The translations under genes and the position numbers were made by a program. Below are positions 14,269-55,586 of a DNA stretch of 55,586 bases, piece by piece. Source of the DNA: Phytoactinopolyspora halophila (lineage in GTDB: Bacteria; Actinomycetota; Actinomycetes; Jiangellales; Jiangellaceae); NCBI RefSeq assembly GCF_003287285.1, contig NZ_QMIG01000027.1, forward strand, positions 1 through 55,586. The letters are read 5' to 3'. Every line of letters starts with the position of its first letter. Position 1 is the stretch's first letter. The notes below the pieces were generated by a model, which was given only the letters and a program-made list of their open reading frames with translations, ran no database searches and was not told the origin of the DNA.

Positions 14269-16653
14269 GTGAGTTCTGTCGAATATACCAGTCCTGTGGA
14301 TTTCATGTCAATGACGAGCACAGATGATGAAATCGCGACAGAACAAGACACCATCACGGCGATCTACAAACGATTCGACGCATTACGCGAGAAAGCCGAT
14401 CATCGCTTCTCTAGTGCGATTCAGCCGACGCAGGTTTCCACTCCCGGAGGAAAACTCGAGCGTAATATCCGGGCCCAGCATTTCTCCGAACGCGCCGCAC
14501 AGTTGTCCGCCGCCGAACACGGCTTGGTGATCGGGCGCCTCGACCTCGACCACGATGAACACTTCTACATCGGCCGAACCGGGCTGTACAGCGAAGATTA
14601 CGATCCCCTCCTGATCGACTGGCGTGCCCCGGCCGCCACCCCCTTCTACCGTGCCACGCCGATGGAACGCCTCGGCGTACGCCGGCGCCGGCACATCCAT
14701 CTCAAGGGACGCCGTGTTGTCCGGCTGGACGACGACATCCTGGCCATCGACGAGCTCGACGACGACGAGCGGCAGCACCTCACCGGGGAAGCCGCACTGC
14801 TGAGTTCGCTGCAGTCCGCCCGTACCGGGCGCATGGCAGACATCGTGGCGACCATCCAGGCCGAGCAGGACCGGATCATTCGCTCGGAGCTCGACGGCAT
14901 CCTCGTCGTCGAGGGCGGCCCGGGCACCGGCAAGACCGTCGTCGCCCTGCATCGCGCGGCCTACCTGCTGTACACCCACCGCGACCAGCTCGCCAAGAGC
15001 GGTGTGCTCGTCGTCGGCCCGAACGCGACCTTCCTGCGCTACATCGACCAGGTGCTGCCCGGGCTCGGTGAGACCGACGTGGTGCTGGCCTCCATGGGTG
15101 ACCTGTACCCCGGTGTCGAGACCAGCCGCACGGACGCCCCCTTCGCGGCAGCCGTGAAGGGGAGCTTGCGCATGGCCGACGTCCTGGAACAAGCGGTGAC
15201 GCGTCACGAGCGGATACCGCCGGGCAGCCTGAAGGTCACCACCGATCGCGACACGTACCTGCTCGACGAAGAAACGTGCCAGCGCATCCTCGACGAGACC
15301 CGCGAGCGCGCCGAACGCACGCGGCAGCCGCACAACCGGATGCGGCAGTTTGTCGCCAAGAAGGTGCTCAACGAGCTCGTGCGCCAGGAGTACGAACGGC
15401 TCGACTCGGTGCTCGACGGGATCGACATCCCGCTCGAAGCCGACGACGAGGAGGATCGCGACCTCGGCGAGCTCATCGACCAGAACGCCCTGTACCGGGA
15501 ATTTCGCACGTCGCCGTCAGTGCGCGAGGCCCTGGACATCCTGTGGCCCGAGCTCACACCCCAGCGGGTCCTCACCGACCTGTACACGGATCCCGACTTC
15601 CGCGCCGCGGTCACGCCCCAGCTCAGCCAGGCCGAGCGCGACGCATTGCACCGTGCCGACGCCACCGCATGGACGATCTCGGACGTGCCGCTCCTGGATG
15701 AGCTGGCCACCCTCGTCGGCGAGCTCGACGCGACGATCAACCGGGCGGAACGGCGGCGAAGGCAGGCCGAGGCCGCGCGCTCGCAGCACATCGAGGAGCA
15801 GCGCCAGCTGGTGCACGACGCCTACGACGTGGCCATGGACATGGCCATCGACGAAGAGGTCACGATGCCCGTCGACGCGTCCCTCGTGCTGGAGCGCTAC
15901 CACGACGTCGACGATCGCGGTTTCCTCGCCGAACGTGCCCGTCAGGACCGCGAATGGGAGTACGGTCACGTGATCGTCGACGAAGCGCAAGAGCTGTCTC
16001 CCATGGCGTGGCGGCTGCTGGTGCGCCGCTGTCCGAGCCGATCGATGACGGCCGTCGGCGACATCGCGCAGACGGGCGCACCCGACAGTCCCGGATCCTG
16101 GTCCGAGGTGCTCGACCCGGTCGCCCCGGGTCAGTGGCGCCGGGGCCAGCTCACCGTCAATTACCGCACCACCGAACAGATCATGAATGTGGCCGCCGAC
16201 GTCCTCGCCGCCAGCGGCGCCGATGCCGTCGCACCAAGGTCGGTCCGTCCCGACGGCGAGAAGCCGTGGGCCTGGCAGGTGACTGACGACGAGCTGGCGG
16301 ATGCGCTGCCCGGCCTCGTGCGCGAGGAGCGCGTTCACCTCGAGACGGGAACCATGGCTGTCCTGGCGCCACGGTCGCGCATCGACAGCGTGCTCGCCAG
16401 CGTGCGCCACGCCTGTCCCGAGGCGACAACCGGTGACGACGAGAACGTGTTGGACGCGCCGGTCGCCGTCCTGACTCCGGCTCAGGCCAAGGGTCTGGAG
16501 TTCGACGGCACGATCGTCGTGGCTCCGGACGAGATCGTGGCCGGTTCGTCGCGCGGCTACTCCGATCTCTACGTCGCGCTGACCCGGCCGACCCGCCGCC
16601 TCGGCGTCGTCGCCACCGGCCCCCTGCCCGACGGCCTCGCCCACCTCCGCTGA
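14269..16653 (+). CDS. helD: HelD-family RNA polymerase-recycling helicase
   Basis: A 794-residue SF1-type motor ATPase. An N-terminal coiled-coil arm (ITAIYKRFDALREKADHRFS) is followed by YIGRTGLYSEDYDPLLIDWR, Walker A GGPGTGKT (about residue 220) with VVALHRAAYLLY, an inserted clamp domain, DEAQELSPMAWR (motif II), and C-terminal motifs VNYRTTEQI and AQAKGLEFD. HelD frees stalled RNA polymerase from DNA, and some actinobacterial versions protect against rifampicin. The GTG start at 14269 follows GAAAGGT. The last codons and stop lie in palindrome A1. The preceding 177 bp are AT-rich for this genome and probably hold the promoter; no rifamycin-associated element was recognised. Confidence 0.9.
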   Translation: MSSVEYTSPVDFMSMTSTDDEIATEQDTITAIYKRFDALREKADHRFSSAIQPTQVSTPGGKLERNIRAQHFSERAAQLSAAEHGLVIGRLDLDHDEHFYIGRTGLYSEDYDPLLIDWRAPAATPFYRATPMERLGVRRRRHIHLKGRRVVRLDDDILAIDELDDDERQHLTGEAALLSSLQSARTGRMADIVATIQAEQDRIIRSELDGILVVEGGPGTGKTVVALHRAAYLLYTHRDQLAKSGVLVVGPNATFLRYIDQVLPGLGETDVVLASMGDLYPGVETSRTDAPFAAAVKGSLRMADVLEQAVTRHERIPPGSLKVTTDRDTYLLDEETCQRILDETRERAERTRQPHNRMRQFVAKKVLNELVRQEYERLDSVLDGIDIPLEADDEEDRDLGELIDQNALYREFRTSPSVREALDILWPELTPQRVLTDLYTDPDFRAAVTPQLSQAERDALHRADATAWTISDVPLLDELATLVGELDATINRAERRRRQAEAARSQHIEEQRQLVHDAYDVAMDMAIDEEVTMPVDASLVLERYHDVDDRGFLAERARQDREWEYGHVIVDEAQELSPMAWRLLVRRCPSRSMTAVGDIAQTGAPDSPGSWSEVLDPVAPGQWRRGQLTVNYRTTEQIMNVAADVLAASGADAVAPRSVRPDGEKPWAWQVTDDELADALPGLVREERVHLETGTMAVLAPRSRIDSVLASVRHACPEATTGDDENVLDAPVAVLTPAQAKGLEFDGTIVVAPDEIVAGSSRGYSDLYVALTRPTRRLGVVATGPLPDGLAHLR

Positions 16654-16706
16654 TCATGAACACTAGGCGACCACATAGTCCGCCTAGTGTTCATGATCAG
16701 CGGAGG
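16644..16706 (+). terminator. Palindromic element A1 between convergent genes
   Basis: A perfect 26-bp inverted repeat: left arm 16644-16669 (CCTCCGCTGATCATGAACAC, then TAGGCG), right arm 16681-16706, with an 11-base loop between. The helD stop (16651-16653) and the stop of the opposite arginase-fold gene (16697-16699) both lie in the arms, so both proteins end Leu-Arg-stop from the same bases. The core TGATCATGAACACT recurs at 17522, 29453 and 55531. It is well placed to stop transcription from both sides. Confidence 0.8.
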
Positions 16707-17464
16707 TTGCGGGCGGCGGCGAGCGCGTTCTCCAGATAAGGACGGACGCGCTCCGCCGCCTCCTTGCCCTGATTCACGTTCCACGTGCAGGCCAGACCGA
16801 CGGCGGCAACCCGGCCCGTCTCGAGCACCCGGTTGATGGCCGCGAACGTCGCGTCGAGCCCTGGACCACCCGCGACCGGGATAGTCTGGCCGGGAAGCTC
16901 GCTGGGATCAACGACGTCGAGGTCGACGTGCAGATACAGCGGCCCGTCCGGCAATTCTTGCGCGCTCAGCTCGTACACGCCGGATCGTCCGATGGCCGCC
17001 GTGGCCAGGTACTCGACTTCCGGTGGGTCCAGATCACGGGCATCGACCAAGACGGCCCGCTCCTCGGGGACCGCTCGCAGCCCAAGCGGCTCGGCCATCA
17101 GCTCGGGCCGGTACCCGACGAGCATCCGCAGCGGCATCCCGCCGAGGTATCCCGACGACGACGTCTCCAGCGTCTGCACATCGCCGTGCGCGTCGAACCA
17201 GACGATGCCGGGATCCACTCCCTCACGCTGCAATGCCGCCATGACGCCGAATGACGTGGTGCAATCTCCGGACAGGACTATCGGCGTGCCGCCGTCGCGG
17301 GCGTCGGCGGCCACGACGTCGGCGACCCGCCGATACAGGAATGCCATACGCTGCCAGGTGTCGCCCTCGGGCAGATCCACGACGACGGTGGAGTCGATGT
17401 CGAGCGGAACGTCCAGACCAGATAGGTACTCGTCGAGATGATACGGGACAAGAATGCGTGCCAT
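16697..17464 (-). CDS. Arginase/agmatinase-fold (ureohydrolase) protein
   Basis: A 255-residue ureohydrolase-fold protein. Metal-ligand motifs are VWFDAHGDVQTLE (Asp, His, Asp) and HVDLDVVDPSELPG (D-x-D-x-x-D). The first motif, GGDHS in arginases, reads SGDCTTSFG here, so the usual His metal ligand is Cys. The same change is known in other actinobacterial members whose substrates are undefined. It may therefore be an amidinohydrolase with an altered manganese site rather than a true arginase. ATG 17464 begins MARILVPYHLDEY. It lies between palindromes A2 (upstream) and A1 (overlapping its stop), so it is probably transcribed alone. Confidence 0.8.
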   Translation of the reverse strand: MARILVPYHLDEYLSGLDVPLDIDSTVVVDLPEGDTWQRMAFLYRRVADVVAADARDGGTPIVLSGDCTTSFGVMAALQREGVDPGIVWFDAHGDVQTLETSSSGYLGGMPLRMLVGYRPELMAEPLGLRAVPEERAVLVDARDLDPPEVEYLATAAIGRSGVYELSAQELPDGPLYLHVDLDVVDPSELPGQTIPVAGGPGLDATFAAINRVLETGRVAAVGLACTWNVNQGKEAAERVRPYLENALAAARNLR

Positions 17465-17505: not shown

Positions 17506-17590
17506 CCCGCCCCGCTTTTCCGCTGATCATGAACACTAAGCGACCTATGTAGCCGCTTAGTGTTCATGATCAGCGGAAAAGCGGGGCGGG
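17506..17590 (+). terminator. Palindromic element A2, 37-bp perfect stem
   Basis: Left arm 17506-17542 and right arm 17554-17590 are perfect inverse copies over 37 bp, with an 11-base loop (ACCTATGTAGC). The arms hold the family core TGATCATGAACACTAAGCG, and extend perfectly into a flank (CCCGCCCCGCTTTTCCGC) that other copies lack. It lies 5 bp past the stop of the minus-strand lipoprotein gene, and so works as that gene's terminator if it has that role. Confidence 0.8.
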
Positions 17591-29099: not shown

Positions 29100-30050
29100 T
29101 CAGCCCGACCGGAGAGCGACGGCCGCGGCATCCTGCACGGCGGCGGTCAGGGCCGCGAGGGCAGGTGAGTCCAGTCGCCAGCGTTGCCAGAACAGCGGCA
29201 CGTCGAGATGGCGTCCAGGCACGAGCTCGACGAGGGAGCCGTCGTCGAGCGCGGGCCGCGCCATCTGTTCGGGCACCATTCCCCAGCCGAGTCCTAGCTG
29301 GGCAGCTTCCACGAATCCTCGTGACGACGGCAGGTAGGTCACCGGCAGCTCCTGCCGTGAGCCCGTCACCATCTCAGCGAAGCGATCTTGCAACGCGTCC
29401 TTGCGGTTGAACACGAGCATCGGTATCGACCCCAGCGCATCCGCCCCCTTCCGATGATCATGAACACTTGTCGACCTATGAGGTTGATAAGTGTTCGTGA
29501 TCATCGGAAGGGGGTCCACGCCGAGTGCGGGCGAGGCGACCGCCAGATAGCGCATCGCACCCAACCGCTCCGTACGGCACCCCTGGACGACCTGCGGCTC
29601 AGCCGTCACGGCGGCCATCACCGAGCCGTCTCGCAAGAGCGCTGCCGAATGATCCTGATCCTCCTGGCGGATGTCGAACGTGAGCCTGCTGTAGTGCTCC
29701 CCAAGGGCGGCAAGGGCCGGGAGAAACCACGTGGCCAGCGAGTCCGCGTTCACGGCGATCGGTATCTGCCGCGCGAGCCCCGCGCTCTCGCGGCCACCCG
29801 TCAACTCGGTCAACGCCTCGCTCTCCAGCAGCGAGATCTGCCCGGCTAGGCGTGCCAGCACGTGGCCGGCCTCGGTGGCCTGCGCCGGCTTCGTACGCCG
29901 CACGAGTATCTGGCCCATGCGGGATTCGAGCGCCTTGATTCGCTGGCTCACCGCCGACGGGGTGAGGTGCAGGCGCCGGGCAGCCGCGTCGAAGCTCCCC
30001 TCTTCGACGACCGCGGCGAAGGCGGTGAGGTGCGCGATGTCCAGCTCCAT
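29100..30050 (-). CDS. lysG: ArgP/LysG-type LysR regulator containing a palindrome-encoded insert
   Basis: A 316-residue regulator, about 20 longer than E. coli ArgP or C. glutamicum LysG. The N-terminal HTH is GSFDAAARRLHLTPSAVSQR with IKALESRMGQILVRR. The C-terminal LysR_substrate domain has the ArgP markers VFNRKDALQDRF and LGWGMVPEQMA. Residues 180-202 (PLPMITNTYQPHRSTSV, then HDHRKG) come entirely from palindromic element A3 and break the region between ASPAL and GSIPML, where the family normally has a short segment. The frame is kept. The gene is divergent from a LysE exporter, its expected target on lysine or arginine excess. Whether the insert is tolerated is not known. Confidence 0.85.
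   Translation of the reverse strand: MELDIAHLTAFAAVVEEGSFDAAARRLHLTPSAVSQRIKALESRMGQILVRRTKPAQATEAGHVLARLAGQISLLESEALTELTGGRESAGLARQIPIAVNADSLATWFLPALAALGEHYSRLTFDIRQEDQDHSAALLRDGSVMAAVTAEPQVVQGCRTERLGAMRYLAVASPALGVDPLPMITNTYQPHRSTSVHDHRKGADALGSIPMLVFNRKDALQDRFAEMVTGSRQELPVTYLPSSRGFVEAAQLGLGWGMVPEQMARPALDDGSLVELVPGRHLDVPLFWQRWRLDSPALAALTAAVQDAAAVALRSG
29444..29514 (-). repeat. Palindromic element A3 inside the lysG coding sequence
   Basis: Arms 29444-29469 and 29489-29514 (26 bp) are inverse copies with one mismatch, and the 19-base loop (GTCGACCTATGAGGTTGAT) has its own weak stem. The core GATGATCATGAACACTT and the loop motif GTCGACCTATG match family A. Unlike the other copies it lies in the middle of a gene and is translated in frame. 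Confidence 0.85.
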
Positions 30051-30142: not shown

Positions 30143-30214
30143 ACGTCTCCACCCATGTCTCTCGCGACGCCTCCACCCATGTCTCCAACTACGTCTCCAG
30201 CTATGTCCTTGCCG
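30143..30214 (+). repeat. Three 24-bp repeats at the start of lysE, each with an in-frame ATG
   Basis: Units 30143-30166, 30167-30190 and 30191-30214 share the pattern ACGTCTCCACCCATGTCTCC followed by four variable bases. Each carries an ATG in the lysE frame (30155, 30179, 30203). The repeat has therefore multiplied possible start codons. Confidence 0.65.
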
Positions 30215-30829
30215 CTTCCCGCACCCACCGCCACCGTGGCCGTCGGATTCGTCACCGGCCTCTCGCTGATCATCGCGATCGGTGCCCAGAACGCCTTCGT
30301 CCTTCGCCAGGGAATCCGACGCGAACACGTACTCGTCGTCATACTGCTGTGTTCCGCCGCCGACGCCCTGCTCATCACCGCCGGCGTCGCCGGCCTCGGA
30401 GCCGTCGTCACGGCACACCCCGCCGCCGTCGAGATCACCCGCTACGCGGGTGCGGCGTTCGTCCTGGGCTACGCGGTCCTCGCCACGCGCCGGGCACTTC
30501 GCCCGAACGTGTTGACCGTCGACGACGCGCCACCAGTGGCGGCCCGGCGCCGGGCCGCCATCATGGCCTGCCTCGGCTTCACCGTTCTCAACCCCCACGT
30601 CTACCTCGACACCATGATCTTGCTGGGTTCGCTCGCCAACCAGCACGGCAGCGGGCGCTGGCTGTACGGCATCGGCGCGACGCTGGCGAGCTTCGTGTGG
30701 TTCTTCGCGCTCGGCTACGGCGCCCGCACACTACGGCGATTCTTCGCACGCCCCAGGTCATGGCAGATTCTCGACGCTCTCATCGCCGCAGTGATGTTCG
30801 TCATCGGCGTCACCCTGCTGACCCGCTGA
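30203..30829 (+). CDS. lysE: LysE/ArgO-family basic amino acid exporter
   Basis: About 208 residues from ATG 30203, close to E. coli ArgO (211). Helix 1 with GFVTGLSLIIAIGAQNAFVL is the family signature, followed by RQGIRREHV, five further membrane segments, and FTVLNPHVYLDTMILLGS (the conserved NP-x-x-YLD). It exports lysine and/or arginine from the cytoplasm. In-frame GTG 30122 and ATGs 30155 and 30179 would add a Pro/Ser/Thr-rich repeat segment not found in homologues, so the shortest start is preferred. It is divergent from lysG, its expected activator. Confidence 0.87.
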   Translation: MSLPLPAPTATVAVGFVTGLSLIIAIGAQNAFVLRQGIRREHVLVVILLCSAADALLITAGVAGLGAVVTAHPAAVEITRYAGAAFVLGYAVLATRRALRPNVLTVDDAPPVAARRRAAIMACLGFTVLNPHVYLDTMILLGSLANQHGSGRWLYGIGATLASFVWFFALGYGARTLRRFFARPRSWQILDALIAAVMFVIGVTLLTR

Positions 30830-54488: not shown

Positions 54489-55547
54489 ATGGCCATGCCC
54501 GTAGACGACACGAGCCGCGACGAGCGCCGGGTGACCATCAGCGCGATCGCCCGGGAAGCCGGGGTCTCCGTACCCACGGTTTCCCGGGTGGTCAACGGCC
54601 GCTCCGACGTCGCACCACAGACGCGGCAGCGGATCGAGGATCTCCTGCGTCGCTACGGCTACAGCAGGCGGACGAACCACAGCACCCCTACCGCCCGGCT
54701 CATCGACCTGGTATTCAACGATCTCGACAGCCCGTGGGCGGTCGAGATCATCCGCGGCGTGGAAGACGTCGCGCACGGTGCCGGCGTCGGGACCGTGGTC
54801 TCGGCCACCCACCGCGAACCCGCAGCGGCGCGGCAATGGCTGCAGAACCTGCGTGCCCGCGAATCCGACGGCGTGATCCTCGTGATCTCGCCGCTGGATT
54901 CGCCCATGCAAGAGGAATTGCACCGGCTCAACGTCCCGATGGTCGTGGTCGACCCGGCGGGAGGATCCCCGCTCGAAACCCCGACCATCGGCGCCAGCAA
55001 CTGGGCCGGCGGCCTGTCCGCCGTCGACCACCTGATCGAGCTCGGACACCGGCGGATCGGATTCGTCGCGGGACCCCGTACGCTGCTGTGCAGCCGTGCC
55101 CGGCTCGACGGCTACCGGGCCGGGCTGGAAGCCGCGGGCATCGGGATCGACGATGCGCTGATCCGGGAAGGCGACTTCTACCACGAGTCCGGCTTTCACG
55201 GCGGCCGTGAGCTGCTGGAGCTCGACGATCCACCCACGGCGATCTTCGCGTCGAGCGACCAGATGGCGTTCGGCGTCTACGAAGCGGTCCGCCAGCACGG
55301 GCTGCGCATTCCCGACGACGTCAGCGTCATCGGCTTCGACGACCTCCCGGAGGCGCGGTGGTCGTCGCCACCGCTCACCACCGTGCGCCAGCCACTCGCG
55401 CAGATGGGTGTGCTGGCAGCGCGCAACGTGCTGCGCCTGGCCAGCGGCGACGGTCTGGAGAGCCCTCGGGTGGAGCTCGCGACCAGCCTCACGGTCCGGG
55501 AGAGCACCACCTCCCCTCCCGCTCCTCCCGCTGATCATGAACACTAG
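54489..55547 (+). CDS. LacI-family regulator 2
   Basis: A 352-residue close paralogue of LacI 1. HTH: RVTISAIAREAGVSVPTVSR, then VVNGRSDVAPQTRQ; sensor domain with DSPWAVEIIRGVEDVAHGAG, GASNWAGGLSAVDHLIELGH and VSVIGFDDLPEARW. It differs from LacI 1 mainly in the sensor, so it may respond to a different sugar yet bind the same DNA. The start is ATG 54489 or 54495, without a ribosome-binding site. The last residues (DHEH-stop) come from palindromic element A4. It follows the CUT1 importer, its likely target. Confidence 0.9.
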   Translation: MAMPVDDTSRDERRVTISAIAREAGVSVPTVSRVVNGRSDVAPQTRQRIEDLLRRYGYSRRTNHSTPTARLIDLVFNDLDSPWAVEIIRGVEDVAHGAGVGTVVSATHREPAAARQWLQNLRARESDGVILVISPLDSPMQEELHRLNVPMVVVDPAGGSPLETPTIGASNWAGGLSAVDHLIELGHRRIGFVAGPRTLLCSRARLDGYRAGLEAAGIGIDDALIREGDFYHESGFHGGRELLELDDPPTAIFASSDQMAFGVYEAVRQHGLRIPDDVSVIGFDDLPEARWSSPPLTTVRQPLAQMGVLAARNVLRLASGDGLESPRVELATSLTVRESTTSPPAPPADHEH

Positions 55548-55586
55548 TCGACCTATGGGCAGGTTCAATCGGTGCTTGCAATGAGC
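55527..55586 (+). repeat. Palindromic element A4 (left arm; cut by window end)
   Basis: TCCCGCTGATCATGAACACT, then AGTCGACCTATG, matches family A, including the loop motif GTCGACCTATG of copy A3. No right arm follows before the window ends 26 bases later, so the copy is longer, truncated or degenerate. It supplies the TAG stop of LacI 2. Confidence 0.65.

Follow-up and report, generated by a model that had tools for sequence, protein, structure and literature searches.

A probable mobile palindrome read in frame within the lysG gene of the actinobacterium Phytoactinopolyspora halophila

How does a long, near-perfect palindrome come to lie within an intact protein gene? The question is raised by lysG of Phytoactinopolyspora halophila, an uninterrupted open reading frame (29100..30050, minus strand) for a LysR-type regulator of 316 amino acids. 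The gene lies in a stretch of 55,586 nucleotides, hereafter the window, which is contig C18 of a 5.04-Mb genome assembly in 77 contigs (G000). The product belongs to the ArgP/LysG family, matching NF002964 in a profile search at 358.7 bits against a cut-off of 197, and the gene called divergently from lysG (30203..30829, plus strand) presumably encodes a LysE-type exporter. In our opinion, the feature in lysG is very probably a copy of a non-autonomous mobile palindrome of an actinobacterial family, read in frame by the gene that holds it. The original prediction had offered a protein-coding mobile palindrome as a candidate, and this is still the best reading: the family is real, six in-gene copies share one frame, and both occupied and empty sites are found.

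The palindrome (29444..29514) spans 71 bp. Pairing and folding resolve it into two 34-nt arms (29444–29477 and 29481–29514), which are 91% complementary, and a 3-nt loop (29478–29480). Its RNA strand folds at −51.8 kcal/mol, compared with −20.5 ± 3.2 kcal/mol in shuffled sequences (z = −9.75), and none of 200 shuffles folds as well. The lysG frame reads across the palindrome without a stop, in agreement with the predicted in-frame translation into about 23 residues: 23 codons (29445..29513, minus strand) specify residues 180–202, PLPMITNTYQPHRSTSVHDHRKG. Within the palindrome lies the 49-bp core of the family (29455..29503), composed of a TGATCATGAACAC arm, 23 inner nucleotides, and a GTGTTCGTGATCA arm that departs from the family arm by one mismatch.

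The rest of LysG outside the insert is conserved, and over its full length the fold matches ArgP of M. tuberculosis (3isp_A; Z 31.1, rmsd 2.2, 286 aligned of 290). In the predicted structure, the mean pLDDT of which is 83.9, residues 183–200 are the only segment of at least three residues with a pLDDT below 50, a value that is expected for any segment without homologues and is thus weak evidence of disorder. These residues are the part of the insert encoded by the core. By analogy with similar repeats in Rickettsia, the insert probably appears in the protein as an additional flexible loop; the element would add this loop to the linker of the regulatory domain, after the conserved MRYLAVASP stretch.

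How much the protein has gained depends on the reference. It had been described as about 20 residues longer than its family, which is true with respect to the two best family profiles (292–297 positions) and does not extend to the 16 family relatives. Counted to the KD motif, the linker has 44 residues in the window protein versus 28 in 13 of these relatives (33, 36, and 56 residues in the remaining three). The net gain over the 28-residue linker is therefore 16 residues, not 23, though the palindrome spans 23 codons. The 71 bp of the palindrome are not divisible by three, the codons touched by the 49-bp core number 17, and the outer stem overlies positions that align with native residues. Insertion of the core, with its flanks then converted locally, would fit both the closeness of the net gain to the 17 core codons and the placement of the outer stem over native-aligned residues; other paths are possible. 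The linker of 56 residues belongs to P. endophytica, where no palindrome accompanies the extra length at this point, so the LysG loop tolerates length change in general.

Among 17 genomes, the lysG site is occupied in the window genome only, and none of the 16 family relatives presents an exact empty site. A paired copy is absent from all 20 named LysG loci, and the insert peptide is missing from 19 other aligned rows (seven named loci; the remainder come from genomes of the family, and some of these share a species). The same residues encoded without palindromic DNA in unrelated genera, an observation named beforehand as telling against a mobile palindrome, were seen in neither set.

The lysG core is a member of a repeat family with the pattern TGATCATGAACAC, 23 or 24 nucleotides, and GTGTTCATGATCA. 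Half-sites with up to three mismatches occur seven times in the window against 0.11 expected, and half-sites with at most one mismatch occur 149 + 162 times in the genome, compared with 0 + 0 for a reversed-pattern control. In a sample of 393 genomes of the class, exact-arm copies number 102 in the window genome, 86 in G020, 57 in G019, 40 in G021, and 6 in G018 (P. endophytica); the other 388 genomes contain none. The five carriers fall into two genera, one comprising G018–G021 and the other represented in the collection by the window genome alone. A looser DNA search added a single weak hit (G003, E = 7.4e-4), and the window has no Rfam match at the gathering score. Carriage by phages or plasmids was considered and rejected: the exact-arm pattern occurs in no viral contig, and plasmid and phage records contain no similar DNA.

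Three further copies lie in the window. The second, of 65 bp (16643..16707, core 16651–16699), separates convergent genes, each of which stops at the TGA opening the core arm that faces it. The third, of 85 bp (17506..17590, core 17524–17572), is intergenic, with the 17596–19554 gene ending (3′) 23 bp away. Only the left half is present of the fourth (55532..55557), which is cut at its center by the end of an insertion sequence (IS). For these copies (16651, 17524, and the half at 55532), the original prediction was right in placing all copies other than that of lysG at gene ends; genome-wide it is contradicted by five further in-gene copies.

For the genome as a whole, 125 paired copies (each arm with at most three mismatches, five in all) were mapped in stretches around 127 candidate sites; they represent part of the genome's set, and one candidate list was ranked by similarity to the lysG peptide. 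In the 103 of these copies with 23-nt spacing, the 13-bp arms are near-invariant, an observation to be read with the arm rule in mind, which itself restricts arm variation. Variation is seen in the outer stem (to approximately 8 bp) and where the inner stem begins, and yet both keep their pairing, which exceeds that in all 300 shuffles at outer-stem positions 1, 2, and 5–8 and at inner positions 0–3, and does not do so at outer positions 3 and 4 or beyond 8. The hairpins are 49–93 bp long, with a median of 59 bp.

Occurrence of the core within coding regions is not confined to lysG. According to a home-made gene caller, six of the 125 copies lie wholly within genes, namely lysG, cobG, glcE, cydD, the gene for an AMP-forming ligase, and thiO; five are internal, while that of thiO forms a C-terminal tail. 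All six are read in the frame in which the second codon is ATC. When the 125 copies are read on both strands (250 readings), this frame is open 170 times and the other two 0 and 14 times. The use of one frame by all in-gene copies follows from this bias, since in either orientation stops are usually absent from that frame alone, and survival within a gene requires it. A copy landing inside a gene would nearly always meet a stop in two of the three frames and would usually find the third open whichever way it faced, so the surviving in-gene copies all encode [LM]I[MT]NT...[IT][SG]VHD[HQ].

The six cases differ in how they were placed. The inserts of cobG, thiO, and the AMP-forming ligase were located by profile match only, and for the ligase a PDB alignment at E ≤ 1e-25 gave no match. 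In CydD the insert falls within the linker that joins the membrane part to the ATPase part. The cydD site is occupied in the window genome alone among the 20 genomes with a match, the other 19 having no copy there. The length of this linker varies widely without palindromes, and in several relatives a copy-free linker equals or exceeds it in length; the linker of G001 is long and holds no copy, and G002 has one loose pair elsewhere in the locus. Among 63 copies from relatives, three are in-gene, a figure that gives no rate, since the stretches were picked for long open frames; the glcE copy of G018 was found separately. A protein of G019 that we take to be magnesium-chelatase-like (G019:C1:91579, L245) carries a terminal tail encoded by a palindrome, and the frame used is that of the lysG insert.

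The exact empty site that had been sought for the lysG insert was found at glcE instead. The glcE site is occupied in three of eight aligned genomes (the window genome, G018, and G019). In G018 and G019 the insert measures 51 bp, i.e., 17 codons, and is in frame: the proteins read EWSGS, 17 residues, and ESGALL in G018, and EWSGS, 17 residues, and GSGALL in G019. Empty genes of matching length read EWASV followed directly by GRGALL in G002 and EWTSV followed by GGGVLL in G021. In the window genome the copy lies at the same point with longer flanks. Of the other copy-free homologues, that of G001 is one residue longer than those of G002 and G021, and that of G020 is shorter; a distant homologue in G008 (44% identity) has extra residues at the site without a palindrome, and a search of G017 for glcE gave no match at E ≤ 1e-60. 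The gain of 51 bp is thus seen, and the empty sites are too diverged at the DNA level to show a target-site duplication. In a tree of LysG and CydD, the window genome, G017, G018, and G019 are separated from the rest with support of 92, a grouping that excludes the empty G020 and G021; the window genome and G017 pair with support of 46. The simplest reading would be one old insertion in an ancestor of the carriers. The presence of the family, and of the same glcE site, in separately assembled genomes of other species also makes a misassembly, the other objection raised at the outset, unlikely.

Although the glcE insert would be old, its copies do not look simply inherited. In P. endophytica both arms of the glcE copy have changed together (AACAG/CTGTT), with pairing kept within the coding sequence, and the glcE copies of the window genome and of G019 each have the inner stem typical of their own species. 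By nearest neighbors, the inner stem groups with its own genome in 102 of 103 copies of the window genome, 38 of 38 of G019, and 8 of 9 of G021. This analysis covers 49-bp copies only (103 of 125 in the window genome, 38 of 39 in G019, 9 of 10 in G021, 7 of 7 in G018, and 0 of 6 in G020). All seven inner stems of G018 group with its sister G019, an assignment that says little, because the method favors larger sets. Copies at homologous sites thus bear species-typical inner stems, which simple inheritance does not predict. We prefer homogenization by recombination between copies as the explanation; the alternative is repeated insertion at one target. A more far-reaching version of the preferred reading holds that a palindrome system without RAYT, moved by some other factor, rewrites its copies in each species to that species' own inner stem, those within genes included, so that the protein segment evolves in concert with the genomic repeats. 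Under this version the glcE insert, found in three species of two genera, would be a segment kept as a hairpin for reasons of DNA or RNA across genus-level divergence. We put this forward tentatively, as a possibility that we consider rather doubtful.

Most copies lie outside genes, and their placement there bears on the most serious rival to mobility. The mapped stretches holding copies of the window genome are 89% coding. Leaving aside the six in-gene copies and two that lack one neighbor, 117 copies have both neighbors: convergent genes flank 39 of them, tandem genes 62, and divergent genes 16. Gene 3′ ends that face a copy (n = 141) do so at a median distance of 10 bp, and 130 of the 141 overlap the core or lie at most 40 bp away, whereas for gene starts facing a copy (n = 95) the median is 44 bp. 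Such a distribution, together with the compensating changes that keep the stem paired, is what would be expected of a hairpin useful to the host at gene 3′ ends, a terminator or a stabilizer of mRNA, which is maintained by selection and strays into genes as a by-product, with no selfish element involved. A U-tract terminator was not supported: at least five T in 10 nt were found in 7 of 250 hairpin tails, compared with 2 of 249 controls. Selection for a host hairpin is also at odds with the sharing of positions. Of 39 sampled copies of G019, only 4 have a counterpart among the 125 copies of the window genome that adjoins the same gene on the same side, and 3 of 7 copies of G018 match positions in G019; the sampled positions are mostly not common to the species. 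Moreover, G017, which belongs to the same genus as the four carriers G018–G021, has no copy at all, and selection at 3′ ends leaves the origin of new copies unexplained. We therefore regard this explanation as unlikely, though not negligible.

In 39 genes the stop is the TGA that opens the core, and in 19 it lies at core positions 14–16; of the long genes in the latter class, 15 of 17 end in DHEH. Unrelated proteins, for example those of L193:130-1581 (leuC) and L109:1547-2470, share a C-terminal tail and a stop supplied by the palindrome. Out of 45 long genes with the stop in a copy, 20 were searched; NCBIfam profiles matched 11 of them (E ≤ 1e-40) and gave nothing for the other 9. The end of the profile is reached within three positions in 8 of the 11 matched genes (tesB and pcaB among them, below cut-offs), and in the other three, also below cut-off, the match stops 35, 44, and 76 positions short. 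Given that 8 of the 11 reach the profile end, copies seem to arrive at gene ends rather than to cut genes midway.

In the mechanism that we favor, the jumping unit would be the core of about 49–51 bp, moved by a factor acting in trans. It would usually land at the 3′ end of a gene and often provide the stop codon there, either with its first TGA or with the stop at core positions 14–16, the hairpin lying downstream. The stem outside the core would form in place, and recombination would homogenize the copies within a genome. Several observations count against this reading: neither a transposase nor another moving factor was found, lysG lacks an exact empty site, and the LysG loop, the CydD linker, and, in one distant homologue, the GlcE site vary in length where there is no palindrome.

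A mobile unit need not be of this kind. The near-invariant inverted arms resemble terminal repeats, and most sampled positions differ between species; both features would suit a miniature derivative (MITE) of an insertion sequence with ends matching the 13-bp arms. The sole IS seen at the copies nevertheless has other ends (GGCRGGYTCAAKCGGTGCTTGCAA) and lies within the palindrome instead of enclosing it, and a duplicated target is not established. A MITE origin is improbable.

The IS in question is a second mobile element. One end of it, GGCAGGTTCAATCGGTGCTTGCAATGAGC, occupies 55558..55586 and adjoins the half copy, and the contig and the window stop there. With up to two mismatches, the end GGYTCAAKCGGTGCTTGCAA occurs 21 times, only in the window genome among six searched. 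Of these matches, 20 start at the center of a half-palindrome (one half being degenerate), and for 18 of the 21 a contig end is no more than 60 bases away, that of the window included. Assuming two such ends per IS, the number of copies interrupted at their center would be roughly ten. A 47-residue frame adjoining one end resembles transposases of the IS30 family, scoring 23.7 bits where the curated cut-off is 80. This IS30-like element uses the palindrome family as a landing site. For IS30 of E. coli, nearly palindromic hot spots are listed among the targets (PMC9333248), and REPs are likewise reported to be IS targets (PMC1525189). At L172:1562-1625 (G000:C3:4461), a palindrome center retains a short remnant of the IS end only, and the far arm is altered.

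The differences between copies raise a further alternative, namely that each arises in place, through template switching or recombination that makes its flanks palindromic, and not from an inserted unit. The outer stems vary from copy to copy and pair within each, and the outer stem in lysG overlies residues aligned with native ones, as such a process would predict. A near-invariant 13-bp arm in unrelated genes, however, needs a common source, and at glcE 51 bp have been gained. An origin in place may account for the outer stem only, and as an explanation of the whole palindrome it is very improbable.

An ordinary REP of the GTAG or CGTC superfamily mobilized by a RAYT, which is alike in location, repeat-supplied stop codons, and copies within open reading frames (PMC3733652), and whose tags occur anywhere inside 34 (GTAG) and 20 (CGTC) of the 125 cores, is extremely unlikely, since the family failed both defining features tested: in the 8 nt adjoining the core on the outside, GTAG occurs in 0 of 250 flanks (control 1 of 247) and CGTC in 14 of 250 (control 18 of 247), and the Y1_Tnp transposase domain (PF01797) is present in 0 of 22 family genomes compared with 5 of 14 control genomes.

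With non-autonomous mobility preferred, the closest known system is that of the Rickettsia palindromic elements (RPEs), to which the present family is likened by description. Many RPEs lie in frame within open reading frames of unrelated proteins in R. conorii (PMC3733652), and the proteins that bear them have been counted (PMC2635572). Both are interspersed palindromes found in frame in several unrelated protein genes, and both represent an in-frame gain relative to an empty homologous site, here that of glcE. They differ in host phylum, and the family described here is set apart by its near-invariant 13-bp arms and species-specific inner stem. The case is less singular than it was first thought to be, because palindromes in open reading frames are known outside Rickettsia: GTAG and CGTC REPs lie downstream of genes, can provide stop codons, and in some cases lie within open reading frames (PMC3733652). 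The present family shares with them the preference for gene 3′ ends, the repeat-supplied stops, and the in-gene copies; unlike them, it has no tag enrichment at the core ends and no Y1 transposase in the 22 family genomes, and its hairpins measure 49–93 bp versus the 20–40 bp given for those REPs in that source. Long inverted repeats are also tolerated inside coding genes of Nematomorpha mitochondria (PMC6649704), which differ in being organellar and are not described, in the accessible text, as one interspersed family. A search of open-license literature with narrow terms found no actinobacterial report of such coding palindromes, which is weak evidence of absence.

If our reading is true, protein-coding palindromes extend to a high-GC actinobacterium, in a family without the RAYT enzyme linked to REPs. 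Two matters would thereby become testable: what moves such repeats when no Y1 transposase is present, and how a coding insert can stay in step with other repeats of its genome. The family also provides natural insertions in well-known proteins, namely LysG, CydD, CobG, and GlcE, and a common C-terminal tail (DHEH) on several others.
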